From Asparagopsis taxiformis (Eukaryota > Rhodophyta > Florideophyceae > Bonnemaisoniales > Bonnemaisoniaceae), in contig JALQPE010002458.1 in assembly GCA_030407315.1 (NCBI GenBank), forward strand, positions 59,236 to 123,235: a stretch of DNA of 64,000 nucleotides. The letters run 5' to 3'. The notes below the pieces were generated by a model, which was not told the origin of the DNA, made no database searches, and saw nothing but the letters and a program-made list of their open reading frames with translations. Made by a program: the position numbers and the translations under genes. Within the stretch, counting starts at the first letter, position 1. Each line of letters starts with the position of its first letter. Below, piece by piece: positions 13,366 to 41,834 of the stretch.

Positions 13366-13398
13366 CGTCTGTGTTTTCGGAAGTGGACGCGGACGTCC
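13366..13398 (+). repeat. terminal inverted repeat, left end
   Basis: Begins CGTCTGTGTTTTCGG and ends in GGACGTCC. It is the inverse of 36127-36159 with two mismatches and of 62515-62547 without any visible mismatch. Flanking DNA changes completely at its outer edge in every copy. Confidence 0.85.
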
Positions 13399-13490: not shown

Positions 13491-13748
13491 GACGTCCACT
13501 TTCTCTAGTACATATGGCGGAATACTAGGGCCCGACATCCACTTTCTCTAGTACATATGGCGGAATACTAGGACCCGACATCCACTTTCTCTAGTACATA
13601 TGGCGGAATACTAGGACCCGACATCCACTTTCTCTAGTACATATGGCGGAATACTAGGACCCGACATCCACTTTCTCTAGTACATATGGCGGAATACTAG
13701 GACCCGACATCCACTTTCTCTAGTACATATGGCGGAATACTAGGACCC
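13491..13748. repeat. 43 bp subterminal tandem repeat, six units
   Basis: Units start at 13491, 13534, 13577, 13620, 13663 and 13706 and contain CTTTCTCTAGTACATATGG and CGGAATACTAGG. The inverted copy at 62205-62425 has five units. Subterminal arrays of this kind often bind the transposase; here that is inference. Confidence 0.85.
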
Positions 13749-13881
13749 GACATCCAGTATACAATATATCAGCGAAAACCGGGAGGGAAGAAATTACAGC
13801 GGATGGTAAATTCAGGGCCCATATCGGACCGTATTTTATTCTCTCATTTAGGAAACTGCTCGTATACAATACGTCTCTCTA

Positions 13882-15990: not shown

Positions 15991-16024
15991 GTGCGCGAAT
16001 CTTGATCAAGATTCGCGCACGTAC
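15987..16024. repeat. 38 bp perfect palindrome at an inversion joint
   Basis: Arms GTACGTGCGCGAATCTTGA and its complement meet with no spacer. In the other copy (60660-60690) only one arm exists, followed by GGGTATGC. A short segment with the first mini-exon has flipped here, leaving a fold-back junction. Confidence 0.75.
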
Positions 16025-16621
16025 AAAGCAAAGTCGGTCAAAGAAGATCAGTCGGTGATGAGGGCGGAGTGGAGCCTGCGGCGTCGACCGGACAGCTTTC
16101 TGCGTCCGCTTAAGTCTTGCTGTGCATACTCGAAATCATCGCCGGCAGTGAGATTGAGTATGGCCCAAGCCATGGTCTCTGATTCCCCGAACAAAGAGAT
16201 CCGGATCGAGAACAACGAATATAAACATATAATCATATATATGAGAATCCATTTGCTTTCCTTACATGATCTGTGGCATATCCGCTGTAAAGCACATTCA
16301 GATTCCACGAAGTTTGGAAATAAAAAAGTTTATTATTACAAATGAATTAATTGAAAATTCATCTCCCAGGGCAGTCGTTCGTCCTTCCATGCACACGTTG
16401 CCAGCACGCAATGTGATGTAACAGTTGGAAATGATTGAACTCTCGGTTAAATTCCACCGTTGGGATGTCAGCTGGAGTGAGCACAAAACTACTACCCAAA
16501 AAACTACGAACACGTTACATTCCAAGTCTCGAAAGCACCACAAAAATAAAATTGGTCGCATCTGGACGGCACAGTCTCCCCTGTTCAGCTCGCAATCCTC
16601 CCTTTTGCGTCAAAACTCGAC
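16025..16621. promoter_or_regulatory. intergenic region upstream of transposase
   Basis: About 600 bp between the micro-exon locus (-) and the transposase (+). It holds AT-rich runs near 16210-16250 and 16315-16350, and a coding-like patch whose frame is not kept. It is conserved in inverse at 60046-60640, so it probably holds the divergent promoters. No clear TATA box assigned. Confidence 0.35.
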
Positions 16622-19600
16622 ATGGAATGCAAGTATGAAGGGTGCTTCTACTACTGCGTAGATGCTTATGCGCTCGCGCTGCATGAGCGAACGTGTCGCT
16701 ACCGTTTCAACCCCTCTCCCCAACATTTCAACAACGCTCGTGTCCCTGCCGTCACCCATGAGCCTGCTCGAAACGGCGACCATGATTCCCCGCAACCCAG
16801 CTCCCCAGACCCAGAATCTGGTCGTGCTTCCTCCAGCGACTCACCCTGTGACGCTTCACTGCCACCAACCTCAACCCCCTCCCGCGCAGACCTCCTCGTG
16901 CAATCCCTCGCCGCCAGTCTCACAACCCTCGAGTACAAGGCCGGCGCTGGCCGCGTGAGCGAAGTCATCACCATCCTACAAGACCCCGCATTCTCCCTAG
17001 AAAAGTTCAACAGCGCCGTTCGCACCGTAGAAGAATGTCGCCACGTTACCGCTTCCATGGTCGAAACACATTTCCGCACCGAAGGTTACAAGAGCCACAT
17101 CATTCCAGACAAAACTGGTAAGTACTCGGCACAGCTGTACCTCCGCGACCCAGTCGACATGCTCCGCAGGCAGTTAGCACTGGCTAACGACCAAAATACT
17201 CTCTTCCACCCCTCCCCACAGACCGCCCCAGACGGCACCGCAATATTTTCTCATCCCCTACACACAGAATTCGCGAAAACGCTGCACCAGGTTACTAGAC
17301 AGCGCGTGCAGCTCTCGGAAGATCCACAGGTCGTATGGGCAGAGGAAAATGATCCCACCGCTTCCTCCTTTGCCGGCCTCCTCCAAGTGTACTCCGACAA
17401 GAGCAGCACAAGCCTCAAGAGCTCCGCAATCGTCGCATACCCCATACACGTCACACTGCTCAACTTCTCCGCCCCCCTCCGTCGCCACTGCATCCGTACC
17501 GGCCTCACCATCGTCGGGTATCTTCCGTACATTGTTAACCCTTCGTCCAACGCCTTGTTCGGTGATGAAATGCCGACAACCTCTAGTTCTGCTAGTCGCG
17601 CTCGCAAAATTGATATTCTTCATAAAGCACTCGAAAAAGTGTTTTCGTCCCTATCCACCGCGTTCTCTTCCGGGTTCCCCTGCACAGACTCCACTGCAAC
17701 TGCCCGCCAATGCTTTCCCATCCTAGCCAATTATTGCTGCGACTTTCCAGAGGCCAAAGAGCTCTCATGCACTCGCAACAGCACTACCACCACACATCCC
17801 TGCCACCGCTGCTACATCCCCGCCACTCAACTTGAATCCAGCGCGCCACACCAGCCCCGCTCCCTCGATGATACACGCTCTGCACGCCAAGAGAGCGCTC
17901 AGGAGCATACAACTGCTCCGCTCGAAGCTCTCTCCCTCCTCGAACAACACTCTGTCCTCGAATCGACCGCTCTTTTACCCACCAACAGTCCCCTAGACCC
18001 CTACAACATTTTCTCCTTCGAGCCTCTGCACAATCTCCACCTCGGCATCTCAAAGCTCATCAAACAGTGCATTGTCCACCGCCTCAGCTCCCCAGACCTC
18101 ACCACCACTGCCTCCCATTCCGGGACACCTCGCACCTTCAAGAAGGTGAAAAAATCCATCCTCGCCGGCTCAAACAGCATTCTGTCCGCTATCGAACGCG
18201 ACTACTACATCACCGGTCTTCATGTCGACTTCTCCAAGGGTGAGAAGGGCACCAATTTGAACGGCCTCTTCACGGAGGACGGCATACGCGGCATGCTCGC
18301 AGCCAAAGACTATCACCATGTCGACATGGTGTTCCCTTTCATCGCAGCATTCATTGACACATGCTGTGACGAAGTAGATACAGCCCCCCTCACTTCCATC
18401 TGCACGCAATACTCTGACCTCGTCGCATGGGTCATGAAACGCGGTCGCATCAAGCACTGGACTGCCGCCGAACTAGAAAGCCTCCAGAACTCCATTTCCT
18501 ATTTCAAACAATCAATGCTCTCCACCCTCGGCCCATTCCACACCACAGGTCTCAAAACTTTCAAGTTCCATCTTCTAGACCATCTTCCCGGTGACTTGCA
18601 GAGATATGGCGCCCTGGAACACATTGATGCAGGCCCCTACGAACACTCGCATCTTCTGTTCAAACAGAGTTATAGGAAAACCTCTCGAAGGCGCTCCACA
18701 GCCATGGAAGAGACTATTCGCCACATGGAATTCTCCTTGGCCACTCCAACTGGTCATACCCCATCGAACACATTGGGAAACGCACGCATGATATCGCCCA
18801 CAGACGGTGCAGTACTCGTTCGCGACGGATTCACCGTTGCACTGCACGACTTTGCCTCCCTGCTGCCCGATGCAACCCTCCTCGTTGCAGATATCGACGG
18901 ACAGCCCGATCCTGCCACTCTTTTGCCGCTGCACAACTCCTCGTTCCCGTCTGGCACCATAACGCTATTCCAGCAACTCGGTGACACAGCTGCACAAGCG
19001 TTCCTCACCCTCGCTAGACTGCGCGCCACGGCAGAAGGCCCTCCAATACATGACATGGACATTTCCGTCACCGTGGTAAAGTCCGCCTACGTCATGGGAG
19101 GGTACGTCCCAGATGCCGACGACTTTGACCCGCACAGTGGCATGCTTCGCCCCACAAACGTGTCGAGGCACAAGCAGCAGCGCGTCTTTGCAACTTCATC
19201 GTTCGGCCCCGCAAAGAGATCGCAGTACTCCTTTGTCGTCATCTCCGGAACTGCCGATGACTACAGAACCATATGGGTAGGGCGCGTCCTGGCACTGGTA
19301 CGCCTGCAGTCTCCAAACCTGTTTCAACCTGTAGAACTCGCTTTCGTTCAGTATATGACCTGCTTTGCCCCAAAAACCGCTGTGGAAAAATCACTTGGGT
19401 GCATTTGTTTAAAGTGGTCCACATGGGACCCGGACAACGGATCCGTTGACAGCAATGACACTGCATCCCACAGTGCAGGTGGTCCTTGGTTTGACCTCAT
19501 TCCTGCATCTACTATATCTGGCACCGTGCACATCGTACGAAGTAACTTTCCAGTCAAGCCATTTACGAAACAAATGCACTGGTCGGACCACCGTTTCTAT

Positions 19601-19660
19601 CTCAACCGCTTCTACACCAACACTGATTACCAATTCACAGATGATAATGAAGAAGAATAA
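16622..19660 (+). CDS. KDZ/Plavaka-like transposase
   Basis: 1012 residues, intact. The start ATG is followed at once by a C2HC finger (C3, C8, H21, C25; MECKYEGC...LHERTC), the typical N-terminal knuckle of KDZ transposases. The core has the family's signature order. There is a TDSTATARQCFPILANY block with D356, then DFPEAKEL and a CHRCYIP knuckle, then FSFEPLHNLHLG around 464-474 where the usual Asp is Glu467. Last comes ALEHIDAGPYEHSHLLFKQSYRKTSRR with E666/E674 as the likely final acidic residue. These would form an RNase H-fold DDE-type active site for cut-and-paste transposition in the nucleus. It is convergent with the coiled-coil gene (77 bp apart). An AATAAA overlaps the stop. The substitution at 467 may reduce activity or be family-specific. 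Confidence 0.8.
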   Translation: MECKYEGCFYYCVDAYALALHERTCRYRFNPSPQHFNNARVPAVTHEPARNGDHDSPQPSSPDPESGRASSSDSPCDASLPPTSTPSRADLLVQSLAASLTTLEYKAGAGRVSEVITILQDPAFSLEKFNSAVRTVEECRHVTASMVETHFRTEGYKSHIIPDKTGKYSAQLYLRDPVDMLRRQLALANDQNTLFHPSPQTAPDGTAIFSHPLHTEFAKTLHQVTRQRVQLSEDPQVVWAEENDPTASSFAGLLQVYSDKSSTSLKSSAIVAYPIHVTLLNFSAPLRRHCIRTGLTIVGYLPYIVNPSSNALFGDEMPTTSSSASRARKIDILHKALEKVFSSLSTAFSSGFPCTDSTATARQCFPILANYCCDFPEAKELSCTRNSTTTTHPCHRCYIPATQLESSAPHQPRSLDDTRSARQESAQEHTTAPLEALSLLEQHSVLESTALLPTNSPLDPYNIFSFEPLHNLHLGISKLIKQCIVHRLSSPDLTTTASHSGTPRTFKKVKKSILAGSNSILSAIERDYYITGLHVDFSKGEKGTNLNGLFTEDGIRGMLAAKDYHHVDMVFPFIAAFIDTCCDEVDTAPLTSICTQYSDLVAWVMKRGRIKHWTAAELESLQNSISYFKQSMLSTLGPFHTTGLKTFKFHLLDHLPGDLQRYGALEHIDAGPYEHSHLLFKQSYRKTSRRRSTAMEETIRHMEFSLATPTGHTPSNTLGNARMISPTDGAVLVRDGFTVALHDFASLLPDATLLVADIDGQPDPATLLPLHNSSFPSGTITLFQQLGDTAAQAFLTLARLRATAEGPPIHDMDISVTVVKSAYVMGGYVPDADDFDPHSGMLRPTNVSRHKQQRVFATSSFGPAKRSQYSFVVISGTADDYRTIWVGRVLALVRLQSPNLFQPVELAFVQYMTCFAPKTAVEKSLGCICLKWSTWDPDNGSVDSNDTASHSAGGPWFDLIPASTISGTVHIVRSNFPVKPFTKQMHWSDHRFYLNRFYTNTDYQFTDDNEEE

Positions 19661-19737
19661 ATCTAAATCGCAGCACTCTATTGATAATGTACTACATGAT
19701 AAACCTTCTAGTCAACGTCACATTTACTGCACTAATT

Positions 19738-22023
19738 TCAACCATCCTCCATTACGCCAAAACCGTTATCAGCAGTGGCTGCATGGCGCCGCTCCATGCC
19801 CCCATACTGTGGGGCATTGATTTCGACATTCAGGTTTGCAGTCAGGTGTCCAGCATATGGGTCAACGACGAAAAGTTCTGCGCCAATTAGTCCTTGCGCA
19901 ATCACACAATCCATTACAGCACCGAGGTTTGACGTAATATGCGATTGAATCCAATCCTCGGACACTAGAACAAGTGATGAGCAGCGGTTTACATCATCAA
20001 CGACATGAACAATTCCAGACCCCTCTCCGCTTTGCCACACTTCAACAGCCTCTCTCGTCACAGTACGGCTTGCAAACACATGCCGTGACTGTGCACTAGT
20101 CCGCTGTTCGCTCTCGACAACGTCCGTTTCTTCCCTTGCTTGCGAGCCTTGGAGACAAGACATGCAGTACACCACCATACCAACTAATTGCTGAAAAGCT
20201 ACCCCCACATATTGACTGTACCGCCTTGTAAACTCCTTCTGCCGTGCACCTCCTTTCCCCTTCGGTTCATCCAAACACTCCACAGTAGTCACTAGCCAAG
20301 CATCCAGGCGCGCCAGCGTTAGTATGCTCGTCTCTATGTCCATTACTTGTTCTGGTCGTATCGAATAACCCCTGAAGATGTCCAGCACATTCACAGCTAC
20401 TCGGTTGTTAAACCATGCATCACCATTCACTTCCATTTCGAAGCTGTCAGGAACCAAGCCTTTGCTGTATCGCAGCTCTGAGAACGGTGCCGTTCGCCAC
20501 CTCCCCATATCCAAATCACCGTTACTTTCCCGTTTCAAAAGCTTCTCAGACGCTTCGCGCTTTTGTTCCTCTCGCTCGTCCATCTCAGCTCGCGTCGTCA
20601 GCATCGTGCATCTAGACATTAATTTCGTGTACCCCAGCGAACCGAACAATCTGTCCCTCGCATTACGCTTCCGTGCACTCATCACGTCGGACAGTTTCTG
20701 CGTCACCTTCACTTTCAATTCCTTGCTCCCCGCCACAGCCTCTTGACAGCACACACGCTGCTCCTCATCGGAAAACACATCACACCACGGACTTTGACGC
20801 AGTACGTGTCGCACCAAGTCATTCAGCAGATCACTCTCGTCCCTGTACGAAGGTGTATACCACTGCAGATTCTTGATGATATAGCCCGGAGGGGTAGCAA
20901 TATATCCTACACCGTTTTCGCTCCAAAGTGCCCCTTCTACCGGCTCTACCTCGATGGTACGTCCAGTCCAACGTCTCTGCGTTTGTTCCGCTATAGGGTC
21001 CAGCTCCATAGTCTCGTTCTTGCACCACTTTGTCAGGTTTTCCTCAACCGCCCTAAGAACTCCAAGGTATTTCACAGGAATGGCTTTCTGTATTTTCGAC
21101 TTACCGCCACCGTGATCACTGATTCTACCTGTTCTCGCAATTGCAGTAAGGCTGGCATTTTCCGCCTGCAGAGTCTTCACCTTAGCCTCCAACGCAACAA
21201 TCTCCGTGGTGAGCGCCTTGTTTGCTATGTCCTGGCTAAACACTTTTTTTTCCAGCTCCGCGATCTTCTTCTTCTGCGCATTGATGCGACTCGCCATTAA
21301 ATCGATGGATTCCGGCGGATGCAACCTCTCTGCCCTCACCGTCCCCCCATCTCCCACGCTATCGGGAATATGATGTCCTCCATCGCCAATAGCCTGACGT
21401 CGCGGGGGCGTTACGCGCATATTTGGCACCAATGACACTCTGTTGTGACGAGGCCCGCACTCCGGCTGCTCTCTCCCCTCAGTACCACCTGACCGCCGAT
21501 GATAGTTGGCATCCTGTGAACGTTGCTCAGAAACAACATCCCTTGCCGCTATCCTCGGGTCCCTGACTGCATTACCTGCTGGGGCTGATGTACTCGGCAT
21601 AGTTGGCGCAGTGGGGGTCACAGCCTCCAGTGTGTCGGAAGCCCCCGGCTGGGACTCCGTCTGCAGCACCTCCGCATCTGCCAACCCGGGAGGAACTACC
21701 TTTGCCATAGCACTCTGCCGCAATTCCAACATGTTTTGAGCCACTATCATGTCATCATCATGATGTTCACTGTCCCTGCGAGCACGCTTGCCTCGGTCAA
21801 GCCCCATCTCTCTCCGCGCCGTTCCTCCTTCCTCACTTTCTCGCTGCGGATCCCCAGTTCTGCGCCGGTCCGTCTTGCGACTACCGGACCGCGGTTCAAT
21901 GCTGCCGGTAGGCCCAGACCGCTTCTTCGCACGGGATTGTCGGGCACTCGATACAGCAGCTGCTGACCGGGTTTTCTGGAGGCCCGGAGGCTTTGGAGCT
22001 TTCTTCGCAATACGCGGCGGCAT
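19738..22023 (-). CDS. element-encoded coiled-coil nuclear protein
   Basis: 761 residues from the ATG at 22023 (MPPRIAKKAPKPP). Residues 1-90 are very basic with several NLS-like runs (RAKKRSG, RKTDRRRTG, RGKRARR). Residues 90-240 are low complexity. About 245-310 form a coiled coil with Leu/Ile heptads (KKKIAELEKK, LEAKVKTLQAENASL). The rest (about 320-761) is a globular domain I do not recognise. The run of eight A residues coding EKK at 21244-21251 keeps the frame; the second copy has seven and is broken. The tail-to-tail pairing with the transposase in both copies suggests a partner in transposition or target binding. That role is inferred from position only. Confidence 0.7.
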   Translation of the reverse strand: MPPRIAKKAPKPPGLQKTRSAAAVSSARQSRAKKRSGPTGSIEPRSGSRKTDRRRTGDPQRESEEGGTARREMGLDRGKRARRDSEHHDDDMIVAQNMLELRQSAMAKVVPPGLADAEVLQTESQPGASDTLEAVTPTAPTMPSTSAPAGNAVRDPRIAARDVVSEQRSQDANYHRRSGGTEGREQPECGPRHNRVSLVPNMRVTPPRRQAIGDGGHHIPDSVGDGGTVRAERLHPPESIDLMASRINAQKKKIAELEKKVFSQDIANKALTTEIVALEAKVKTLQAENASLTAIARTGRISDHGGGKSKIQKAIPVKYLGVLRAVEENLTKWCKNETMELDPIAEQTQRRWTGRTIEVEPVEGALWSENGVGYIATPPGYIIKNLQWYTPSYRDESDLLNDLVRHVLRQSPWCDVFSDEEQRVCCQEAVAGSKELKVKVTQKLSDVMSARKRNARDRLFGSLGYTKLMSRCTMLTTRAEMDEREEQKREASEKLLKRESNGDLDMGRWRTAPFSELRYSKGLVPDSFEMEVNGDAWFNNRVAVNVLDIFRGYSIRPEQVMDIETSILTLARLDAWLVTTVECLDEPKGKGGARQKEFTRRYSQYVGVAFQQLVGMVVYCMSCLQGSQAREETDVVESEQRTSAQSRHVFASRTVTREAVEVWQSGEGSGIVHVVDDVNRCSSLVLVSEDWIQSHITSNLGAVMDCVIAQGLIGAELFVVDPYAGHLTANLNVEINAPQYGGMERRHAATADNGFGVMEDG

Positions 22024-22257
22024 AATGAAGCTTTCCCGGAAGCGATGGAACGATTGAGTTGCACGAGATACAAAAAAGATTGCTGTATAGTGTCGGTAAC
22101 CACAACGGTCTGCGATGAACGTTCAGGTCAGGTCAAGTACCGGATAATACGCCAACAGCCCAGATTGTATACGGTAGGCAGTCATCAACAGTATTTAATG
22201 AGGTACAATTACAGCTGTCGAGCTAGGCCGCGAGCACCCCTATGTCCGGAAGACGTC
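22024..22257 (-). promoter_or_regulatory. upstream region of coiled-coil gene
   Basis: Short spacer between the ATG at 22023 and the next R unit. It should carry the promoter. The inverted copy keeps only about 25 bp of it (54619-54643) before foreign sequence starts. Confidence 0.35.
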
Positions 22258-22415
22258 CTGATTTGAATTAAAATTTGGGCTATTCTCAAAAACATGCACA
22301 TGTGAACATGTTTTTGAAATGGGGGTGTGCCGTACGGCACAATCGGCCGCCCAAATCAAGGTTTTTTACAATATTTTTGCTGCCCGAAATTCTACAATTT
22401 CTGGGCTGGCCAGTA
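22258..22415 (-). repeat. R repeat unit
   Basis: Hairpin core 22285-22318, with the last base of the arm changed from G to A, plus GTGCCGTACGGCAC. It starts spacer E copy 2. Confidence 0.85.
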
Positions 22416-23516
22416 ATGCATTAGCTATGTGCTCTAAACCGATTCTAACAAGCAGAAAGAATCCTCTCCTTCATGACGATGCTCTCGAATTGAGTGCAAT
22501 GCAACGGACTCCCTCCAGGAGAACGACAAAGCATCGTCTTTTGCAAGACATTTTCGTACGAAAAATAATCGAAACACATATTTGACTTTAACCTAACAGC
22601 TATCGCGAGCACCGTACTCAGCTAAATTTCCTCTGTAATTTCCTTCCTCCAACCAATCAATAGCCGCTTGGTCACAGGCTTAAAAGCCTTCCACTATTTG
22701 TCCTATCCATCGAAGAGGGTTCGATCCAGGCCTTGATGGGTGTGGAACCCGAGAACTTGAAAATGGAACATATTGCGACAGAGATGAGATGTCATTCTCT
22801 TTCGTTTACTTTTTTCTAACAAGATTCTAAACGTCTACGCAGCGGAACGAACCCAATGTCGTCCGTCCGTTTTCAGCCCGGTGAGATGTTTTTGCCATTA
22901 ACGGAGGTGGAGGCGGCTATGGAGGAAGCCTGCGGTTCGGGTATTCTTTCCATTAACGGAGGTGGAGGTGGCGGCTTTGGAGGAAGCCTGGAGAACATGT
23001 GAGATGTCAGTACCCATGGATCACAAGAAAAACATGTAGAGGTCCAGTTTGGATATTGTTGCCATTAACGGAGGCGGAGGAGGCGGCTACGGTGGAAGCC
23101 TGGAGAGCATGTGAGATGTCAGTACCCATGGATCACATGAAGAACATGTTGAGGTGCGGTTCGGATATTCTTTCCATTAACGGAGGCGGAGGAGGCGGCT
23201 ACGGTGGAAGCCTGGAGAAGAATAGAATAGTCCTATACCCATGGATCACAAGTAGACGTAGTTGGGCTCCTTTTCGAAGCCCATTCGTCTCTTGAATAAA
23301 TTTAGCACCCAAATCATATACGATTGCCGAGTTGACACCCCGTATGTCTCGTTGGTAGAAATAGCAGGGGTTCCACCACTCAGCTGGCGGGAAGTAGTTA
23401 CTGATTATATGAGATATGGCTTAGCTCCCGCCAAAACCGATAGCTCTGGGCTCAGGTTCTCCAAATGTGGTTATACGAATGTGTTCTGACAATGGTAGAA
23501 GACGAATATCTGCATC
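22416..23516 (+). repeat. element spacer E, copy 2
   Basis: Same order as at 12001-13055: AGCAGAAAGAATCC..., then the Gly-rich minisatellite (about 22895-23220, more units than copy 1), then the small ORF. The ORF's first ATG is followed by stops here, and the frame is open only from about 23262 to 23489. Confidence 0.7.
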
Positions 23517-23784
23517 CTGCTTTGAATTAAAATTTGGGCTATTCTCAAAAACATGCACATGTGAACATGTTTTTGAGATGGGGGTGTGCCGTACGGCACA
23601 ATCGACCGCCGAAATCGATGTTTTTTGCAATATTTTTTCTGCCCGAAATTGTAGAATTTCTGGGCTGGCCAGCAATGCATCTGAGTCGGACATCCCCACG
23701 TCCAGTGGCCGTCCGGATGTCGCTCACCTGGTAAGCGTGAGGCACCTGTGTCAACCTATGTGACTGGCGGCCTTGCAGTACAAC
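23517..23784 (-). repeat. R repeat unit and short flank
   Basis: Hairpin core 23544-23577 and GTGCCGTACGGCAC, then about 90 bp matching 13263-13365. It directly precedes the methyltransferase-SET gene. Confidence 0.8.
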
Positions 23785-24030
23785 ACTCAAAGGCAGGGAA
23801 TCACAATCTTTTTAAAATTTTTTCTCTACCACGTATCCGTCACAACTTATTACCTACACCGGTTACGGGTTTCAAGACCTTTCCAGTGCTGTGTACCCGT
23901 ATACTCTGTTCCGTTCGATATCAACCAGTGTTCCTCACGAAAGAGTGCAAACGTCACGAGATACGTCGTCAAATTTGACTGTCTCGCCGAGCGGTCGCCA
24001 TCCTGTACCGAATTTTCCACTCATTCCATT

Positions 24031-27000
24031 ATGACGAATAAGCGCAGGCGCAACAGCAATCCGATCGTTGACGACGCAACCGTGCCAATTCTGCGCGAAC
24101 CCGCTAGCCCTTGGGAGGATTCTAGTGACATGGGTACACGTCGAAACGTAGGTCGCGCCGCCCGCGAAACTACTCTCGCTGGCAAAGACTTCCTCCGCCT
24201 CTTGCTGGATTTATTCGCCCACTCAAGTTTCGCAGACTTGACGGACAAGCCGGGAGGTTTCACATACGCGGACCTTGGCGCTTGGGTTGCGCAGGGCACG
24301 GAAGAACAATTTGTGGCGCTGCAAGGTCGACTCAGCATGTCCTTCAGCGGTCGTTCGAAGAATGCTGGAGTCGAGGCGGATGTTGCCGAAATCGTCATGG
24401 CAGAGATGAACGTTGAGCGAGCCAAGCAGATTGTTCGTCTGGCATTACCCATTGCCGAGTTTTCAAGACAGGATGAGCGTATCGGGCAATGGGTTGAGCA
24501 CTGCATCCTTTCTGGGATCGTGCCGCAGACCTTCCTTATTGGATGTAACATGCTTCCTTCGCCACTACAGGCGCCGCAGCGCGGGGAACCAAGCGCCTTC
24601 GTTCTTGCTCCACCGGAAACGTTCGAGGTATTGATGTATTTCCAAGCGTTGTCTATCATCCGAAATCACAACAAGAACCTGCCGCGTCGCCGAATAGGAG
24701 ATGCGGCCGAAGAGGGGAACGAAGCCGCACGCGTCCCAGCCCATCGGAAAAGCACTAATCGAGCTTGTTACGTGGTTCAAGTTTTATACCATGCTTGGAC
24801 CGATGTGGCCTACGCCGCAAAGTTTTCCAGCTTCGAAGAGTTGATGGCGCCGTACATCATTTTCGACAGCAGTGAGCATTGGTTTGACGTGCTCGATGAA
24901 GGTCTATTCGCACCGATGGAGCAGAAGCTAGATCTCTACCACAACAAAGCTCCCCTATCTCATCCTGATGGATATGGTGGAAAAGTAGAGACAAGAACCA
25001 GTGCGCAGCACAGTGCATTTAGGGACCTTGTGAGGAAGTTCTTCGACCGGTTGCAGTTTCTTATCGTCAACCCGGACCTGTACACCTGGCCGGAGTCCGA
25101 CCGCTGGGGGGCACTGGAAATATACTTCTCAAGCGGAAATCCGGACAAGCTGCCAGCGTATTTTGACACCCTCGACGAAGACGTTATGGCTGTCCTCCGC
25201 CCGGCACCACAAGCCGCGGACGCAGAAAAGGTCCCCAAGCCGGTTGATGACACTCCCACTCGTCGCAACACAGGAGGGAGAGGTTTGGTTCCGTCGACAA
25301 GACACACAACCAGGCTTCAACTTGGACCTGGGAGGACCAGTCTTACTGCCCAAGGGCCGTCTCCCCCGTCACCGTCACCCCATGCGACAGAAGAGCAGGA
25401 AAGTGAAGGGCAGGCTCTCGCAAAGGACTTTCTTTCGAAAATGAGTCAGTATTGCCGGGTGTACGACGTCCCTTTCGAAGATTTGGTCAGTGCCGACGAG
25501 AGCCGAGAACACGTGCCCATCACGGGCAACGTTCAGCTCATTCTGACTGATCCGCCCTACAATGTTCGTCGTAAGAGGAACGATTCCAACTCTTCGTACG
25601 ACAGGCTAACTGCAGAAGATATGCAGGCTAGCATCGAAGTGTTTGACGAGCTGTTGCGCCCCGGTGGCCACGGCATCGTGTTCTGCTCGGTTTTGCAGTT
25701 CTACGAATGGTTCCATTACTTGGAAACGTACAAAGGACCGCAGTCAGAAGGCCCAACCGATACTGCTGCCAGTGATGACGGGTCGGATGAAGAAGAGGTT
25801 ACGTCCATGAATTCGGACTCCGAAGCATCGCAGCACAGTGGCGAAGAAAGTGCGGATGAGGAGGAGGACGAGGAGGAGGAGGACGTCGTTCGGAATTCAG
25901 TTTTCTTCGTTGACGAGGTACCTCTGTTGTTTGTCCGACTACCTGGGCACCTCTATCAAATGCCGGGGCGGAAGAGGTACCAACGCATGAACATGGCAGA
26001 GGTCGCTATCCACTTCTGGAAGCGAGGTGTTCCGTTCAAGACCGGAAGCGAGATGGTGGCCTATAGGAACCACGGATACATGGACGGCACGTACCCGGCG
26101 TGGTGCAACGTCACCATCAATATGCCCGCCATCGATTCGAATGAGATGGTGTGGCGAACAAGGAGCACAACCGGTGCTACGGTCAGAGTTCGTGCAGAGC
26201 AGAAGAGCGTCGCTCTCATGATGGAGTTGATCAGCCAGCATTCACAGCCTGGTGATATTGTTGTCGATCCATTCTCTGGCACTTTCGCAACGGGAAAAGC
26301 AGCTATGAGCTTGCCTGAGCACCGTGTTTTCGTCGGCAGTGACATGGACAAATTGTGTGTGGTACGATCGCTTCCAAAGCTGTGTGCAGTCATGTCACGT
26401 GTAATTCTTTCAAACAACACTGACATGAGGGTCACGACAGAAGCGAAACAGAGTGCTGAGAAGTTCTTGGCGTCCCCCTCTGTCACGATGCGTACGCAGA
26501 GGGAACGCAGGATCATCGAACCCCCACCTGGCCTTCCCCTGTACCAGAGGTTCCCGAAATATATTCGGCAGTACCTCTGGCAGCTGTGCCCAGAGTCGAT
26601 TGCGTCGCGCGAGCACATGGAGAAACCGGTACATTATTGGCCACCTTCCCTGCGCCGCTGGTTGCAAACTGAAAACCCTCGCGTGATGCGGGCACACGAT
26701 TGTGTTGCGAAAAAATTGAGCGTTCGACCATCGCTGATTAAGCATCCAAATGCAGGAAGAGGGCTCTTCGCTGAACAGACATTTAATGTTGGTGACGAAG
26801 TATGTGCATACTACGGAACTGTTGTGTACTCTGATATGAGCAAGGAGTCGATGAGGTTCGCGTACGGAGAGGGTCACATGGCGATAACGAAGGAAACATT
26901 CTTGATGTATGCTATCAAGCTGTATGCAACAGCGGAGGACGACGAAAACATCGAGCATCCAATTTGGATTGTTCCGGCTCCGTTCTGTTCGGCGCAGTTC

Positions 27001-27228
27001 ATCAACGACCCGCGGTATTTGCGAGGTGAGGACACTCCGGCGGAAGACACCAGGCGGATGGCCAACGTCGAGTTTGTCGAGAACTACAGCAGCGGTTCGA
27101 CGGGGAAGAAGCTCAAGGCGAAGGACCTAGAAAATCCGAAGATCATTGTAGTACGTGCAATCCGCGATATCCGTCCGGGGCAGGAGCTCTACGTTCATTA
27201 TGGGACAGCGTTTAGAGCATGGAATTAG
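24031..27228 (+). CDS. DNA methyltransferase-SET domain fusion
   Basis: 1065 residues. The ATG at 24031 (MTNKRRRNSN) is the first Met in a frame that stays open upstream to about 23773. Residues 1-480 are of unknown fold, with a basic start. A base methyltransferase follows: motif IV DPPY at 507-510 and AdoMet motif I DPFSG at 746-750, so the order is the permuted (beta-class) one used by N6-adenine and N4-cytosine enzymes. An acidic Glu/Asp insert of about 60 residues lies between them. The C-terminal SET domain shows GRGLFA at 909, FIND at 990-993, NVEF at about 1015 and ELYVHYG at 1052-1058, as in lysine methyltransferases. One chain would thus carry a DNA and a protein methylation centre. 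An AATAAA lies at 27260. It is intact, and no second copy is visible in the window. Confidence 0.8.
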   Translation: MTNKRRRNSNPIVDDATVPILREPASPWEDSSDMGTRRNVGRAARETTLAGKDFLRLLLDLFAHSSFADLTDKPGGFTYADLGAWVAQGTEEQFVALQGRLSMSFSGRSKNAGVEADVAEIVMAEMNVERAKQIVRLALPIAEFSRQDERIGQWVEHCILSGIVPQTFLIGCNMLPSPLQAPQRGEPSAFVLAPPETFEVLMYFQALSIIRNHNKNLPRRRIGDAAEEGNEAARVPAHRKSTNRACYVVQVLYHAWTDVAYAAKFSSFEELMAPYIIFDSSEHWFDVLDEGLFAPMEQKLDLYHNKAPLSHPDGYGGKVETRTSAQHSAFRDLVRKFFDRLQFLIVNPDLYTWPESDRWGALEIYFSSGNPDKLPAYFDTLDEDVMAVLRPAPQAADAEKVPKPVDDTPTRRNTGGRGLVPSTRHTTRLQLGPGRTSLTAQGPSPPSPSPHATEEQESEGQALAKDFLSKMSQYCRVYDVPFEDLVSADESREHVPITGNVQLILTDPPYNVRRKRNDSNSSYDRLTAEDMQASIEVFDELLRPGGHGIVFCSVLQFYEWFHYLETYKGPQSEGPTDTAASDDGSDEEEVTSMNSDSEASQHSGEESADEEEDEEEEDVVRNSVFFVDEVPLLFVRLPGHLYQMPGRKRYQRMNMAEVAIHFWKRGVPFKTGSEMVAYRNHGYMDGTYPAWCNVTINMPAIDSNEMVWRTRSTTGATVRVRAEQKSVALMMELISQHSQPGDIVVDPFSGTFATGKAAMSLPEHRVFVGSDMDKLCVVRSLPKLCAVMSRVILSNNTDMRVTTEAKQSAEKFLASPSVTMRTQRERRIIEPPPGLPLYQRFPKYIRQYLWQLCPESIASREHMEKPVHYWPPSLRRWLQTENPRVMRAHDCVAKKLSVRPSLIKHPNAGRGLFAEQTFNVGDEVCAYYGTVVYSDMSKESMRFAYGEGHMAITKETFLMYAIKLYATAEDDENIEHPIWIVPAPFCSAQFINDPRYLRGEDTPAEDTRRMANVEFVENYSSGSTGKKLKAKDLENPKIIVVRAIRDIRPGQELYVHYGTAFRAWN

Positions 27229-27259
27229 GGTCACGAAAGATGTTTTCATTTCGACTACA

Positions 27260-27265
27260 AATAAA
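27260..27265 (+). terminator. candidate poly(A) signal
   Basis: AATAAA, 32 bp after the stop of the methyltransferase-SET gene. Confidence 0.4.
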
Positions 27266-27454
27266 GCTACGTTCCAGAGTTGAAGTATATCATATAATGC
27301 AGAATGTCCAGCCACCATTAGTCCAGGGTGAAACCTATTCGGCAGTACTCGCCTGTCAAAAACCAATCGTTCACACTCTAGGTGCACTTCGTCCGAGCAG
27401 TGAACCTGACTGCTTGGTTGCTGTTATGCGTGCAGATGCAAAATACAAGACCAA

Positions 27455-28555
27455 GTTGAAATGGACGCCCGGTGGATGTCCAGCTCAGTTGCATTGCTGT
27501 CCAGCCCAGAAATTCTACAATTCAGGGCAGAAAAAATATTGCAAAAAACATCGATTTCAGCGGGTCGATTGTGCCGTACGGCACACCCCCATCTCAAAAA
27601 CATGTTCACATGTGCATGTTTTTGAGAATAGCCCAAATTTTAATTCAAATCAGGGTGTCTAATTTGGCCACAACGGCCCCAGGAACCGACCGCCGCCCCG
27701 AGTGGGGTTGTCACTGGCTTCTGTAAGCACTAACTGTAAGGCTAAATGGCGTCTGACAAAGGGTCAATTTCAGGCTCAATACGCCAGGGACAGGTCTTGG
27801 TCCTTGTTCCATCATGGTCCCACCCCACTCTCTCACGACCAACCTGAAATGCACGTCCGGTGGATGTCCAGCTCGATTGCACTGCTGGCCAGCCCGGAAA
27901 TTCTAAAATTTCGGGCACAAAAAAATTGTAAAAAATCAACGATTTCAGCGGGTCGTTTGTGCCGTACGGCACACCCCCATTTCAAAAACATGTTCACATG
28001 TGCATGTTTTTGAGAATAGCCCAAATTTTAATTCAAATCAGGGTGTCTAATTTGGCCACAACGGCCCCAGGAACCGGCCGCCGCCCCGAGCGGGGTCATC
28101 ACTGGCTTCTGTAAGCACTAACTGTGAGGCTAAATGGCGCCGGAAGATGGGCCGATTGCAGGCTTCAAGCCTAAGTTATGCTAGGGAGAAATCTTCTTCC
28201 GTGTTTCATCATGGTCCCGCCTTACTCCCTCAACAGAAACACTACTCACCCATCACGTTACTCATATTCCGTGCACTTTATATTAGTAGTGAACCCGCCT
28301 GCTTAGTTGCTGCAATGCGTGGATGTAGGCAGCACACGACCAACCTGAAATGGACGTCCGGTGGATGTCCATCTCAGATGCACTGCTGGCCAGCCCAGAA
28401 ATTCTAAAATTTCGGGCACAAAAAATCTTGCAAAAATCAACGATTTGGGCGGGTCGATTGTGCCGTACGGCACACCCCCATCTCAAAAACATGTTCACAT
28501 GTGCATGTTTTTGAGAATAGCCCAAATTTTAACTCAAATCAGGGTGTTCCCCGGA
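27455..28555 (+). repeat. three R repeat units
   Basis: Hairpin cores at 27593-27626, about 27981-28014 and 28482-28515, all in the direction opposite to the units before 24000. GTGCCGTACGGCAC is present in each. They separate the methyltransferase-SET and ParB-dioxygenase genes. Confidence 0.85.
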
Positions 28556-28891
28556 TAAAGGGGTGCTCGCAGCCGCCCCAAAAGCCGCCTAGCTTGACAG
28601 CTGTAATTTTAACACATTACACATCAAGGACACTGCCTGCTTCACGCCACCTCGTCAGGTTTCGAGAGCCCGACTCGGGCCCGTTCTGAACGGACACTCA
28701 CATCTCGATTGCCTGTCTTGCATTCCAGCGGTCACGATAGGTGTGTACCTAACAAAATTTCGGTTGTATTGTGTTATTATTTCCAGCGATTGGCGTTCAC
28801 GACCATTCTTCAACTTAACGTGAAACATACCATCCACATCACTCGAATACGTCAACGTCAACCATCTCTTTTCCTTTCCAACTCAACAACC
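28556..28891 (+). promoter_or_regulatory. 5' leader of ParB-dioxygenase copy 2
   Basis: Conserved in all copies. It contains a possible 46 bp 5' leader intron at 28741-28786 (GTGTGTACCTAAC...TTTCCAG). A GC-rich hairpin, CCCGACTCGGG, lies near 28669. Confidence 0.4.
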
Positions 28892-31800
28892 ATGGCGGAT
28901 ACGCATTTCAGCAGTTTGTTTTCAACGGTTTGCGGCGATCAAGTGAGCGCGTCAGCGGAGTCGCGCGGACTCAAGCGCGGCGTCGATGTCGACTTGTTTG
29001 CGGACGTGGACGGTGCGGCTGTGCATATTGGGACGGCTTCGGTGAGCACTGCTGGTGGCGATGTTGGCCTTCCGCGCACGCTGCACAACCACAAGCTGCC
29101 GGAAACCGACGAGGCCGACTATATCGTCGTGCGCAACATTGCGACTAAGGACAAGTTCAAGGACCTCCCGTTCCCGTACATGTTTGATGGCGCCGAGGGA
29201 CCGCCGGAGACGATGGGTGGAGCATACGCCGCGGCGTTTTACCCTTGGGATACTCGGATGATGCGCCCCGCTGCGGAGGATGGCTCTAGCGACATTCGTA
29301 CCCCTGCTGCAGCGTCAAACTTCAACGCAGCGACGAACCAGGCCAGCTCGGGACGGATGCCCAGTACCGGTCCAGCAGGCGAAATCACTGGTTCGGGGGG
29401 TACGAAGCATCCAGCACGCTCCGTCCCGGTTTCGGGAGGCACGAAGCGCCCTGCTCGCTCTGCCAGAGCCTCCAGTGGAGGCACGAAGCACCCTGCTCGC
29501 TCCAACGTCACCGAAGCTACTACGCAGGACGTAACCGAGGTGGACGACGAACCGGAGGTGGCGGAAAGCATTCGTGAGCAGCAGGGGACGCAAATTATGG
29601 TGCCCAAGTTTGTGACGTCGGATTACGTCGGAGAAGGAGCGACTGTGTTGGTGAGGCAGCTAGTGGAACCGGCCGTGACCCTTCGCGATGTCAAAGAAGA
29701 CCACGTGGAGGACCTGCGCAACAATATGTTGGCGGTGGGGTATGTGAGCTCTTCGCGTATCACTGTGACGGTGCTGAGGTCGCAGAACACGCATTTGTCC
29801 GCCGACACGCGTCTGTTCCAGAATGGCAAATTCCATGCCAATGCGAACGTGACCGTGATCGACGGACTGCATCGTCTCAATGCTATGCATAGCATTGCGG
29901 ATGACTTCACGCGCCTCACCCGTATGCACAGAACCAAGCTGCCACAGGAGGCAAACCGCTTGCGCTGGGTTACTCAGCCTCTGGATGTGTACTACCTTCG
30001 CCGCAAGGACGACAGTGATCTCCAGCCTCATGAGATCATCCACAAGAGTGCAGAGTCGAACCATACGACTGGGACGCAACTGACGGAGCGCTCCCTGGTT
30101 CGAATCTTGTCGTCCATCCAGCAGTTCATCCGTACGATTGCTGTTGCAAACAACGTGGAAAACGCTGGCGACTTGCGTGAGTCTGATGTCATCCGAACAT
30201 TGTTCGAGGCGCAGTTCATGGGGATGATGAATTCGACGAACACGGCTCGGCGGTGGACGCGTTTGGCTATAGCAACGCTGAAGCATCCTGTTCTCGACGA
30301 CGTGTTGCGTGAGCTGAACAATTCCGAGCGCCGCAACGAGATTGGGATAACGCACCTGGACCACAAGATAGTGCGCGAGTTGCTGGAAGAAAACTTTGTC
30401 TTCGTCTTGCGTGGTCTTTCGGAGTACTTGAACCCTGCTCATGGCGGACGTCCGGATGGACGCTTTGACGTGAACGACTTTTATACATACGTCCGTCGCG
30501 TGACTGCAATAGCAAATTCTCTGTACGCTGCGTTTGGGCGCCCAAAGAGTATTATGCGCAAGTCATTTCTGAGCACAGAGATGGCAATTGGGTCGGTTAA
30601 GCAGCCGAAGGAGTTGCAATGGCATCTCACCAATGCCATTGCAATGTATAGAGGGGACGACCGGAGCAGTGAGGTTCGAATGCGACGGAGAACCACGCGT
30701 TTACAGGATTTGGAAACGAACTTGAAAGAGTTTTTCAATCCGACATTGAAGAAGAAGACTAAGGCTCGACGCAAACGCCGCCCTTCTGCTGCCAATGTGA
30801 GACTCACTCACAAGAAGCAGCGGAATGTCGAACATGAGCCTGCTTCGCATGGCATCCGCCGCCGTTCACAGCGACTTCGCTCGACGGGGAGCACACGCCT
30901 CGAGGAAGAAGAGCCGGTTGTGGTACAACAATCCGCCGGGGAAGAAGAGCAGGCCGTTGTTGATAAACCCACCGATCAACAACAAGCCACTGCTTCCGGT
31001 GATGAGGTTGACGAAGACTCCGCCCGTTCCCCCGATTCTGCCGTTGAGATTGTCCCCCAAGATAACCAACGTGCTGGTGCGACTCCCTCCAACCAAGAAT
31101 CTGTCCATACCGCTTCGGACGAGGAAGACAAACAGGGTGCAGACGAGGGCCAAGTCGAAAGCAAGGGGGTCCGCGAAGTGACAATTACATTCACTGTTCC
31201 GGAAGGAGTGGAAGTCGATGAAGACGGTTACATCGTTCGTGACTCTCCTTCTGAAGACGACCTCCTCTTCGACGACCGTATGCCGTCTCTTCCTGACGAT
31301 TTCGAAGACCGAGCCGAAGGGCATCATCTGGCGCAGCGTCCCGCGGATGTCATCGCATCGGTGAGGGTTGGCTGTCTGCCCCCGATTGAGCTCAGGTTGT
31401 TATTGGAGAGTGTGGAAATCGATGAGGAGGGCAGAGAGGTGAGGTATTTGAAGCAAGTGGCGATGGACCCTGTGTTTGAGGGGCTGCATATTCCGGAAGA
31501 ACATCGGGCTCGTGTGCTATTCGAAATCGATCACGTCTATCCGATGTTCTTCGCAGCGTGGAAGATGGCTGCCAAGGCGATGTGTGAGCCTACATCGACG
31601 TTTCTACCCTCGAGGCTGGACTTCGCTCAGGTTGCGCGAATGTCTACAAGCTGGAAGGATTCGTATGAGGCCGGCACTGGTATGGCGTACTTCCACAATT
31701 GCCGAACGGAAATCAACGAGCGAGGGTATACGGTGATGCACAATTTCGCGGATGTAAGCTACCTAGATGCGTCGGACAAGTTCCCATTTGACTTGGGTCT

Positions 31801-32824
31801 CATGGAAGAAATTCCTAACCAGGAATTGTTTCGGTACTTTTTGGGAACGTGGGAGGGGGAGCAGGTGCACAAGGACCCTGGGAACCGGCAGCTGTGGAGT
31901 CCCATTGTCAATACGGGGGACGATGAAACAGACGAGAAGAACCGGAATGAGGGGAGGGCTCGCTTCACGTCTACGCGCCACTGCCTGGTTGACTATGCCG
32001 AGAACGATGAGACGCATATCGACCGGTTCAAGTTTGTGACGCGGCGAGCCCTGCTGGATGTGTGGTTGGGAATCCTTGTCCGGCTGACAGGGCTGGAGGA
32101 GTGCGGTTTACCGGGAGAAAAACTTGTCATGCCGGCATCTGGGGGACGGTTTTTGATAACGGGAAAGGGGTGTCCTCGGCAGGTCCCACACAATGATTTC
32201 CCTGTTCCTCCTCGCGACCGCAAAGATCAACTTCCGGGTTACTTTGTTATTGCCAACGGAGATGACCCATTCCCTATCTGGGTGTGTCCAGGGTCCCACA
32301 AGTACGTCTTTTCCAAAGCGCTGGAATTAGATATGTACGCCAAGACGATGAAGCTGAAGAAGGTAATCGTTCCGCCACGTTCAGTCTTCATCGGTCACGG
32401 CCATGTACAACATGCCGGGGCAGGGCATGTCGACAGAGTTGTGTCACACACGACAACGAGGTATCACACGTATTTCAGGAATGCGTCGTATCCGATTCCC
32501 GACAATGTTTCGTTTGGTTTCATCAGGCGGTTGGGATTCGAAGAAGAAGTCATCGCCAATGCTCCGCGCCGGTCTGCAAGGCAAAGTCAACCGGCACCTG
32601 TCAATGTTCGCCACAAGACAGTTGTTCCCATCCCGGTCAAGAAAGATGGTAGGCCGAAGACAGGGCAGCTCCGAATGATGCGGATGAAGACGACAGAACC
32701 TCGCAAGGATGTAATGCACACACCGAGTGTGGCCCCGGTAGTGCCTCTTCTGCCGGGACAACCTGGATATCTAGTTCACTATCATAGTGAGGACGAAGAG
32801 GAAGAACAGTTTTCCGACGGCTAG
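28892..32824 (+). CDS. ParB-2OG dioxygenase fusion, copy 2
   Basis: 1310 residues from ATG 28892 (MADTHFSSLF). A low-complexity N-terminus carries GGTKRPARSARASS-type repeats near 175-215. About 250-330 is a ParB/sulfiredoxin-like domain with VIDGLHRLNAM (near residue 322), followed by a helical region and the ParB-like phrase LQPHEIIHKSAESNH. A basic NLS-like block (KKKTKARRKRR) and acidic stretches come next. The last 350 residues form a 2OG-Fe(II) dioxygenase-like domain: NERGYTVMHNF, metal-binding PHNDF, GHGHVQHAGAGH and RYH. Parts differ from copies 1 and 3: EEHRARVLFEIDHVYP, and the last about 40 residues beginning EPRKDVMHTPS. This suggests mosaic exchange. Nuclear DNA oxidation or demethylation is inferred. 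A protein substrate is possible. Confidence 0.75.
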   Translation: MADTHFSSLFSTVCGDQVSASAESRGLKRGVDVDLFADVDGAAVHIGTASVSTAGGDVGLPRTLHNHKLPETDEADYIVVRNIATKDKFKDLPFPYMFDGAEGPPETMGGAYAAAFYPWDTRMMRPAAEDGSSDIRTPAAASNFNAATNQASSGRMPSTGPAGEITGSGGTKHPARSVPVSGGTKRPARSARASSGGTKHPARSNVTEATTQDVTEVDDEPEVAESIREQQGTQIMVPKFVTSDYVGEGATVLVRQLVEPAVTLRDVKEDHVEDLRNNMLAVGYVSSSRITVTVLRSQNTHLSADTRLFQNGKFHANANVTVIDGLHRLNAMHSIADDFTRLTRMHRTKLPQEANRLRWVTQPLDVYYLRRKDDSDLQPHEIIHKSAESNHTTGTQLTERSLVRILSSIQQFIRTIAVANNVENAGDLRESDVIRTLFEAQFMGMMNSTNTARRWTRLAIATLKHPVLDDVLRELNNSERRNEIGITHLDHKIVRELLEENFVFVLRGLSEYLNPAHGGRPDGRFDVNDFYTYVRRVTAIANSLYAAFGRPKSIMRKSFLSTEMAIGSVKQPKELQWHLTNAIAMYRGDDRSSEVRMRRRTTRLQDLETNLKEFFNPTLKKKTKARRKRRPSAANVRLTHKKQRNVEHEPASHGIRRRSQRLRSTGSTRLEEEEPVVVQQSAGEEEQAVVDKPTDQQQATASGDEVDEDSARSPDSAVEIVPQDNQRAGATPSNQESVHTASDEEDKQGADEGQVESKGVREVTITFTVPEGVEVDEDGYIVRDSPSEDDLLFDDRMPSLPDDFEDRAEGHHLAQRPADVIASVRVGCLPPIELRLLLESVEIDEEGREVRYLKQVAMDPVFEGLHIPEEHRARVLFEIDHVYPMFFAAWKMAAKAMCEPTSTFLPSRLDFAQVARMSTSWKDSYEAGTGMAYFHNCRTEINERGYTVMHNFADVSYLDASDKFPFDLGLMEEIPNQELFRYFLGTWEGEQVHKDPGNRQLWSPIVNTGDDETDEKNRNEGRARFTSTRHCLVDYAENDETHIDRFKFVTRRALLDVWLGILVRLTGLEECGLPGEKLVMPASGGRFLITGKGCPRQVPHNDFPVPPRDRKDQLPGYFVIANGDDPFPIWVCPGSHKYVFSKALELDMYAKTMKLKKVIVPPRSVFIGHGHVQHAGAGHVDRVVSHTTTRYHTYFRNASYPIPDNVSFGFIRRLGFEEEVIANAPRRSARQSQPAPVNVRHKTVVPIPVKKDGRPKTGQLRMMRMKTTEPRKDVMHTPSVAPVVPLLPGQPGYLVHYHSEDEEEEQFSDG

Positions 32825-33079
32825 ATATCTTAACAACAACTACTTTAGCAAACAATTATCGAGAATATAATCATCTCCTTTATCACTTTCAATCTATGAA
32901 CCTACTATAATGCACTTCCGTTCCATGCTTTCAAACTAGATTGTCCATTCCCTAGTGGGTTGGAGCATGATTCCAGGACGATTCCCTCACATCTCTAGAC
33001 TCGATGGTCTATGCTAGAAATAGCAGAACAATTGGGTTTATACGTGCTTCATCGCCAACTTGCTTCTGGTAATGGCTGG

Positions 33080-34520
33080 ACGTGCACGATACACGATCAC
33101 CTGAAATGGACGTCCGGTGGATGTCCAACTCAGATGCATTCCTGGCCGGCCCAGAAATTCTACAATTTCGGGCACAAAAAAATATTGCAAAAAACATCGA
33201 TTTGGGCGGTCGATTGTGCCGTACGGCACACCCCCATCTCAAAAACATGTTCACATGTGCATGTTTTTGAGAATAGCCCAAATTTTAATTCAAATCAGGG
33301 TGTCTAATTTGGCCACAACGGCCCCAGGCACCGGAACCGCCGCCCCGAGCGGGGTCATCACTGGCTTCTGTAAGCACTAACTGTAAGGCTAAATGGCGCC
33401 TAACGATGGGTCGATTCCAGGCTTCAAGCCTAAGTTATGCTAGGGTGACATCGTTTCCCCTGTTCCATCATGGTCCTGCCTTACTCCTCCACGACAAACA
33501 CTACTCACCCATCACGTTACTCGTATTCCGTGCACTTTGTATGAGTAGTGAACTCGCCTGCTTAGTTGCTGCAATGCGTGGATGTAGGCAGCACACGACC
33601 AACCTGAAATGGACGTCCGGTGGATGTCCATCTCAGATGCACTGCTGGCCAGCCCAGAAATTCTACAATTTCGGGCACAAAAAATCTTGCAAAAATCAAC
33701 GATTTGGGCGGGTCGATTGTGCCGTACGGCACACCCCCATCTCAAAAACATGTTCACATGTGCATGTTTTTGAGAATAGCCCAAATTTTAATTCAAATCA
33801 GGGTGTCTAATTTGGCCACAACGGCCCCAGGCACCGGCCACCGGCCCCGATCGGGGCTATCACTGGCTTCTGTAAGCACCAACTGTAAGGCTAAATGGCG
33901 TCTGACGAAGGGTCAATTTCAGGCTCAATACGCCAGGGACAGGTCTTGGTCCTTGTTCCATCATGGTCCCGCCCCGCTCTCTCACGACCAACCTGAAATG
34001 GACGTCCGGTGGATGTCCAGCTCGATTGCATTGCTGGCCAGCCCAGAAATTCTAAAATTTCGGGCACAGAAAAATATTGCAAAAAACATCGATTTGGGCG
34101 GTCGATTGTGCCGTACGGCACACCCCCATCTCAAAAACATGTTCACATGTGCATGTTTTTGAGAATAGCCCAAATTTTAATTCAAATCAGGGTGTCTAAT
34201 TTGGCCACAACGGCCCCAGGAACCGACCGCCGGCCCCGATCGGGGGCTATCACTGGCGTCTGTAAGCACCAACTGTAAGCCGGAGCCGGCTGCCGCCCCG
34301 ATCGGGGCTATCACTGGCTTCTATTAGCACCAACTGTAAGCCAAAATCGCGTCTCACGAAGGGTCGATTTCAGGCTCAACACGTCAGGGAAAGGTCTTGG
34401 TCCTTGTTTCATCATGGTCCCGCCCCACCCTCTCGCGACCAACCTGAAATGGACGTCCGGTGGATGTCCAGCTCGATTGCATTGCTGGCCAGCCCAGAAA
34501 TTCTAAAATTTCCGAAAAAT
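33080..34520 (+). repeat. three R units and a truncated one
   Basis: Hairpin cores 33238-33271, 33741-33774 and 34130-34163. A fourth R begins at about 34448 but is cut after the AGAAATTCTAAAATTTCC segment and continues into the end module. The tails hold GCCCCGATCGGGGC palindromes. Confidence 0.85.
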
Positions 34521-36126: not shown

Positions 36127-36159
36127 GGACGTCCGCGTCCATTTCCGAGAACACAGACG
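36127..36159 (-). repeat. terminal inverted repeat, right end
   Basis: Ends ...TCCGAGAACACAGACG, the complement of the left end with two mismatches in 33. Sequence after it (TAGGGGGG) differs from that after copy 2 at 54375. Confidence 0.85.
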
Positions 36160-41776: not shown

Positions 41777-41834
41777 ATTCATGAAACGATGAGCAGAGAT
41801 GATACCTACTACTAATCCGGCGCAGTTAGCGTCC

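Follow-up and report, generated by a model that had tools for sequence, protein, structure and literature searches.

A Plavaka-type DNA transposon of Asparagopsis taxiformis carries a gene predicted to encode a single protein with DNA amino-methyltransferase and SET domains

The fusion gene and its two domains

The window analyzed here is a 64,000-nucleotide stretch of the genome of the red alga Asparagopsis taxiformis (NCBI GenBank assembly GCA_030407315.1, contig JALQPE010002458.1, positions 59,236 to 123,235 of the forward strand; coordinates below count from its first letter). It holds a gene whose predicted product carries a DNA base methyltransferase domain and a SET domain, and this gene lies inside a 22.8-kb Plavaka-type DNA transposon bounded by 31-bp terminal inverted repeats. 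The same interval contains a Plavaka transposase, a 794-amino-acid frame and a gene for a protein with ParB-like and dioxygenase-like regions. The fusion gene is laid out as follows.

24031..27228, + strand: methyltransferase-SET fusion gene, 1065 amino acids (Pfam, motifs, relatives)
24031..25530, + strand: N-terminal region, residues 1 to 500; mostly helical in the model, no known domain, low confidence at residues 1 to 46 and 392 to 451
25531..26352, + strand: N6_N4_Mtase domain, residues 501 to 774; permuted order, DPPY then DPFSGT (Pfam, model)
26755..27204, + strand: SET domain, residues 909 to 1058, the last domain (Pfam, structure search)

The original prediction, made from the letters alone, placed both domains in one uninterrupted frame, and this was borne out: the gene sits within a frame open from stop to stop (23764-27228, + strand, 1154 codons), whose first ATG at 24031 gives the 1065 residues, and an AATAAA lies at 27260, 3' of the stop. 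All the motifs listed in that prediction are present in the translation, namely, DPPY (507-510), DPFSG (746-750), GRGLFA (from 909), FIND (990-993), NVEF (1012-1015) and ELYVHYG (1052-1058). The profile hidden Markov models proposed as a check failed for neither half: N6_N4_Mtase (PF01555) covers residues 501 to 774 with E 3.4e-15 and 57 bits against a curated Pfam cut-off of 26.7, and SET (PF00856) covers residues 909 to 1058 with E 1e-6 and 29.5 bits against 22.4.

In the methyltransferase half, the catalytic DPPY lies N-terminal to the S-adenosylmethionine motif DPFSGT (746-751), which is the permuted, beta-class order. A structure search with the AlphaFold model placed this half among beta-class (permuted) DNA amino-methyltransferases, and its matches comprise both N6-methyladenine (6mA) and N4-methylcytosine (4mC) enzymes; the model has an acidic low-confidence insert at residues 572 to 620 and a poorly modelled stretch at about residues 631 to 720. 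Among the 11 aligned rows of the family (window included), PF01555 is matched by all at E≤0.01, DPPY is present in 10 and replaced by DPPF in P0007, and the EQK ahead of motif I, together with the D and G of motif I, is found in 11/11. Because the motif is DPPY, which points to adenine N6 as the methylated group, the exocyclic amino group of adenine would be the more likely methyl target.

The structural matches of the SET half, weaker than those of the methyltransferase half, are chains of SUV420H1, SET7/9 and MLL1 (E 9.5e-6 to 5.3e-5, probability 1.00), and the fold is that of SET enzymes; EZH2 was matched only as two weak pieces, and this half lies outside the coverage of the VIA list. The predicted local distance difference test score (pLDDT) of ten-residue blocks over residues 901 to 1060 ranges from 50 to 94. 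The protein stops 7 residues past the domain and hence has no post-SET region. PF00856 is matched by 10/11 rows at E≤0.01, the exception being P0009; the GxG motif is found in 9 (not in P0002 or P0009), ND in 9 (P0010 has NS, P0009 neither), and the C-terminal Tyr of ELxxxYG in all 11. Canonical SET enzymes carry NH(S/C)xxPN, whereas the window protein reads IND and later ANVEF, with Asp replacing His in it and in eight other rows. Because ND stands where canonical enzymes have NH(S/C), catalytic activity of the SET half is plausible, not assured.

Relatives of the fusion and origin of its halves

Is the fusion a peculiarity of this locus? Relative searches scored just the 7,977 candidates with the most shared words, so there may be further members. 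A search with words of the N-terminal 500 residues, which says little about rarity, led to one relative, P0001, a protein of 1065 residues with 98% identity that stands for 13 member sequences. Residues 480 to 1064 led to 10 relatives, of which 9 have both Pfam domains (P0001 to P0008 as well as P0010), so that the search for homologues with the same fusion, suggested at the outset, was successful; P0009 has the methyltransferase alone. P0002 to P0008 have 28 to 35% overall identity to the window protein and keep both domains in the same order and in one frame, and the identities of P0009 and P0010 are 25% and 21%. The N-terminal region (residues 1 to 500) is common to those relatives long enough to reach there. 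P0010 is a 995-residue database protein from another source in which ParB-like, N6_N4_Mtase and SET parts share one chain; its N-terminal ParB-like region (residues 6 to 101) matches PHROG 1033 with E 6.2e-7. Because the near-copy P0001 with its 13 members and seven divergent single-frame relatives keep both domains, the fusion, judged from these comparisons, is no local accident. Two separate messages for the halves are unlikely, since the homologues carry both domains in a single frame.

The window protein and P0001 differ at 18 residues, 4 of them in the acidic insert (578, 611, 613 and 617), 2 in SET (949 and 956) and 0 in residues 480 to 570 or 621 to 774, where a hand estimate gives about 4/18 as expected, for regions picked after the data had been seen. 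Across eight members, pairwise identities are 31 to 47% for the methyltransferase and 28 to 42% for SET (r 0.52 over 28 non-independent pairs). Trees of the two halves agree in part, both grouping the window protein with P0002, P0003 and P0006, and conflict in part: P0004 goes with P0005 by the methyltransferase (95/94) and with the window protein by SET (82/88). A single old fusion event is the simplest reading, and one half may have been exchanged later.

The methyltransferase half is similar to enzymes of phages and bacteria (PHROG 67, E 8.1e-17; PADLOC type II models), and the family alignment matched at least 22 viral loci from at least 600 candidate stretches. Profiles specific to each half were built from all family rows except P0010 (10 of 11). 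The methyltransferase profile matches 22/22 of the viral loci listed; the SET profile matches 0/692 of their frames of at least 80 residues at E≤1. Sensitivity-limited scans for the SET half confirmed 0 of 21 stretches in viral contigs and 0 of 5 in prokaryote genome contigs. A tblastn search of phage records gave no match, a weak test in which phage-like methyltransferases visible to profiles were also missed. A tree was built from the 30 rows that remained of 33 once 3 identical viral ones were dropped; under midpoint rooting it separates the methyltransferase halves of the 11 family members from the 19 viral sequences (100/98), and P0010 has a long branch in it. An origin of the entire fusion from giant viruses or phages was therefore rejected: the viral loci listed match the methyltransferase half and none the SET half, and the family halves separate in the tree.

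The element, its neighbouring gene and a repeated module

The original prediction also placed the gene on a transposon, and a Plavaka transposase and terminal inverted repeats were found around it. The element contains the following features besides the fusion gene.

13368..13398, + strand: left terminal inverted repeat, 31 bp, differing from the right end at 2 positions; CG outside; identical copy at 62515-62545 (- strand)
13491..13756 and 62201-62423, no strand: 43-bp tandem arrays inside the two left ends, 6.2 copies at 99% and 5.2 copies at 92%
16550..19660, + strand: Plavaka transposase frame, 1036 amino acids stop to stop; PF18759, E 1.7e-24, 87.1 bits against a cut-off of 26.3
19738..22122, - strand: 794-amino-acid coiled-coil-like frame (stop to stop), convergent with the transposase; no Pfam family above cut-off
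22324..34124, no strand: span of eight copies of a 74-nt module with the palindrome TGTGCCGTACGGCACA, all outside long frames
28892..32824, + strand: second cargo gene, ParB-like core and dioxygenase-like region, 1310 amino acids, conserved residues in 4/4 rows
36127..36157, - strand: right terminal inverted repeat; CG outside; identical copy at 54342-54372

The element ends read TCTGTGTT..AACACAGA. CG flanks all four ends found and may be a duplication of 2 bp or belong to the repeat itself; with an inner TGT..ACA reading, the flanks would be TC and GA and there would be no duplication. Plavaka termini are described as TGT..ACA for PlavakaA and CATCA..TGATG for PlavakaB, with a target duplication of 2 to 3 bp (PMC12730594). 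The block of transposase and 794-amino-acid frame is duplicated (15337-22049 and 61315-54618, 98.4%), the frames of the second block being broken, among them the second copy of the 794-amino-acid frame at 54566-56928 (+ strand). The two 43-bp arrays are oppositely oriented, like the element copies to which each belongs. Outside the element, further tandem arrays with periods of 64 to 172 bp lie at 36443-36786, 37980-38257 and 39187-39886. Seven other long frames of the window gave no Pfam match up to E 0.1, and the window contains no tRNA and no Rfam match.

The element has an observed/expected CpG ratio of 0.96, the fusion gene one of 1.09 and the stretch 36201-45700 one of 0.91, and 31 to 39% of the transitions between copies fall in CpG context, against 13 to 17% of columns. 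The element has no heavy 5-methylcytosine (5mC) signature, and a mild CpG bias is present.

The 1310-residue neighbour protein has no Pfam match and three distant relatives, P0011 to P0013. Its ParB-like core (about residues 313 to 400) keeps D324-G325-x-H327-R328 (DGLHR) and its dioxygenase-like region keeps H1100-x-D1102, H1174 and R1190, all invariant in 4/4 rows; we take these patterns to be those of ParB-like proteins and iron/2-oxoglutarate dioxygenases. In a profile comparison, the ParB-like core pairs with the ParB part of P0010 at E 7.7e-4, with a probability of just 25%. Structure prediction from four sequences was unusable (mean pLDDT 34.8), a PDB search with the alignment gave 0 matches up to E 1, and a sensitivity-limited scan of viral contigs confirmed 0 of 61 stretches for this family. 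Two more copies lie in the window, at 7195-11364 (- strand, split by a frame break) and 47994-51995 (+ strand), so that 2/3 copies are open-framed, at a synonymous divergence (dS) of 0.027 to 0.043. The ratio of nonsynonymous to synonymous divergence (dN/dS) between these copies is 0.18 to 0.50, which suggests, without proving it, that they are under constraint; the values for the transposase copies (0.55) and the 794-amino-acid copies (0.52) rest on too few changes to be informative.

The palindrome TGTGCCGTACGGCACA lies within a 24-bp pattern that is present at 16 sites of the window at ≤1 mismatch (0 expected), between 6398 and 52405, and in 15 of them the palindrome is perfect. All 16 sit in noncoding spacers of element copies, 8 of them in the element with the fusion gene. 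Invariant columns number 68/74 in the module, 37/60 just to its left, 14/44 farther left and 11/31 to its right (gappy columns omitted). The pattern that picked the sites covers 22/74 columns, and that part is thus favoured by choice; the rest, which includes a 34-nt imperfect inverted repeat, is not. The module may be where a protein of the element binds, and recent copying is an alternative explanation for its conservation.

Known systems and the possible role of the fusion protein

Transposon-borne epigenetic enzymes as such are already known; the architecture seen here appears to be new. Among the fungal DNA transposons with TET/JBP genes, which are Plavaka and other elements, the Plavaka ones likewise combine their transposase with an epigenetic enzyme, and a dioxygenase-like gene is present here too, but their cargo is a TET/JBP oxidase rather than a methyltransferase-SET fusion beside a ParB/dioxygenase-like protein without a Pfam family (PMC12730594). 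The Phytophthora HarbingerS and MuDR elements also bear a SET gene on a DNA transposon, yet with another transposase family, and the passages describing them mention no DNA methyltransferase in the same chain (PMC12730594). Retrotransposons of dinoflagellates and charophytes encode DNA methyltransferases (DNMTs), as does the element here, but of the C5-cytosine type, and "SET domain" is a term that the paper on them never uses (PMC5890265). SETMAR resembles the fusion protein in uniting SET with a transposon-derived DNA-recognising part; it differs in being fused to the transposase itself and in being a host gene of simian primates, with no DNA methyltransferase in the portion that describes it (PMC9062482). 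The bdelloid N4CMT joins a bacterial-type N6_N4 methyltransferase to a chromodomain; it is a host gene whose chromodomain reads histone marks, whereas the fusion here has a SET writer and is transposon cargo (PMC8885841). No C-terminal chromodomain of this type was found in the fusion protein, for which Pfam lists no chromodomain and, up to E 1, UPF0020 as the sole further match, under cut-off. A literature search that covered subscription papers thinly found no description of an amino-methyltransferase-SET fusion.

What could such a protein do for its transposon? Profiles and structure search uphold the original prediction insofar as it has one transposon-borne chain combine a permuted DNA amino-methyltransferase with a SET domain; that the protein couples 6mA or 4mC to histone methylation, as was also proposed, is something we infer from this architecture. 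The reading that we prefer, at a probability of roughly 45%, is that the element encodes a chromatin modifier of its own, which would sustain expression of the transposon and counteract host silencing. The N-terminal region and the target-recognition part of the methyltransferase would bring it to element DNA, the methyltransferase half would add a methyl to an exocyclic amino group, more probably that at adenine N6, and the SET half would methylate lysine on histones nearby, the joint mark holding the element genes open for transcription. The neighbouring ParB/dioxygenase-like protein is a possible eraser partner that would remove or edit marks, as in the comparison with TET/JBP on fungal Plavaka, where such genes, like those on other transposons, are read as an escape from silencing; the SET genes of the Phytophthora HarbingerS and MuDR elements are mentioned in that context as well (PMC12730594).

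Several points weigh against this reading. For retrotransposon DNMTs the opposite direction, self-methylation, has been suggested (PMC5890265). With a CpG ratio of 0.96, the element lacks the signature of heavy 5mC-driven decay from which it would need to escape. Two other partial element copies in the window have no fusion-gene remnant, and the gene may therefore not be needed by every copy; no second copy of it was found in the window by blastn, and the 4 fragments matched by tblastn were at chance level (best E 6.1). On the SET side, the target-normalised template modelling (TM) score is modest (0.32 to 0.38 for SUV420H1 and SET7/9, 0.59 to 0.60 for MLL1), ND replaces NH, the first Gly of GxG is missing from P0002, and P0009 has a decayed SET half, not recognised by Pfam, beside retained methyltransferase motifs.

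The leading alternative, to which we give about one chance in four, is self-silencing or copy control, in which repressive marks would be laid on the element's own family so that hosts tolerate it. The bdelloid N4CMT, which places 4mC on transposons and is proposed to act with SETDB1 variants in silencing, offers a parallel (PMC8885841). Against it stand the anti-silencing interpretation of TET/JBP enzymes carried by transposons (PMC12730594), the EZH2 match in two weak pieces only, and the 2/3 open ParB/dioxygenase-like copies at dS 0.027 to 0.043, because of which the family would not have been long silent and decaying.

Somewhat less probable is that one half serves as a targeting module alone, the methyltransferase fold binding element DNA without methylating it and SET being the sole enzyme, or the reverse. 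The decayed SET half of P0009 and the absence of the canonical SET His in the family would fit this. The retention of DPP(Y/F) and the motif I D and G in 11/11 rows, of GxG and ND in 9/11 each and of the last Tyr in 11/11 speaks against it, as does the similar divergence of the halves over the 28 pairs.

A SET half that methylates a nonhistone protein, such as the transposase or other element proteins, with a DNA mark on donor or new copies regulating transposition, appears improbable. The SET substrate is not readable from sequence, and SET was found at 0 of the 22 viral methyltransferase loci listed, where the methyltransferase thus works without it; eukaryotic SET domains, however, act mostly on histones. 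An artefact, whether a readthrough of two genes or an error of assembly or annotation, can be dismissed almost entirely in view of the same-length 98% copy with 13 members and the seven divergent single-frame relatives.

A bolder extension of the chromatin-modifier reading, which we consider rather unlikely, is a private epigenetic system in which one chain would write DNA amino-methyl and histone lysine marks on the element's own copies, the ParB/dioxygenase-like protein would erase or edit them, and the palindromic module would be the address. Since ParB, methyltransferase and SET are fused in P0010, they would then make up a single ancestral module of eukaryotes that arose from a phage-type ParB-methyltransferase.

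Mobile elements that bear one epigenetic enzyme have been described before; here a DNA-base writer and a histone-type writer are predicted in one chain, kept through deep divergence, on a DNA transposon. This would permit a direct test of whether one enzyme sets DNA amino-methylation and histone methylation jointly in eukaryotes, and of whether mobile elements use double marks to escape or accept silencing. The protein could also be developed into a tool that places both marks at selected loci of laboratory cells.
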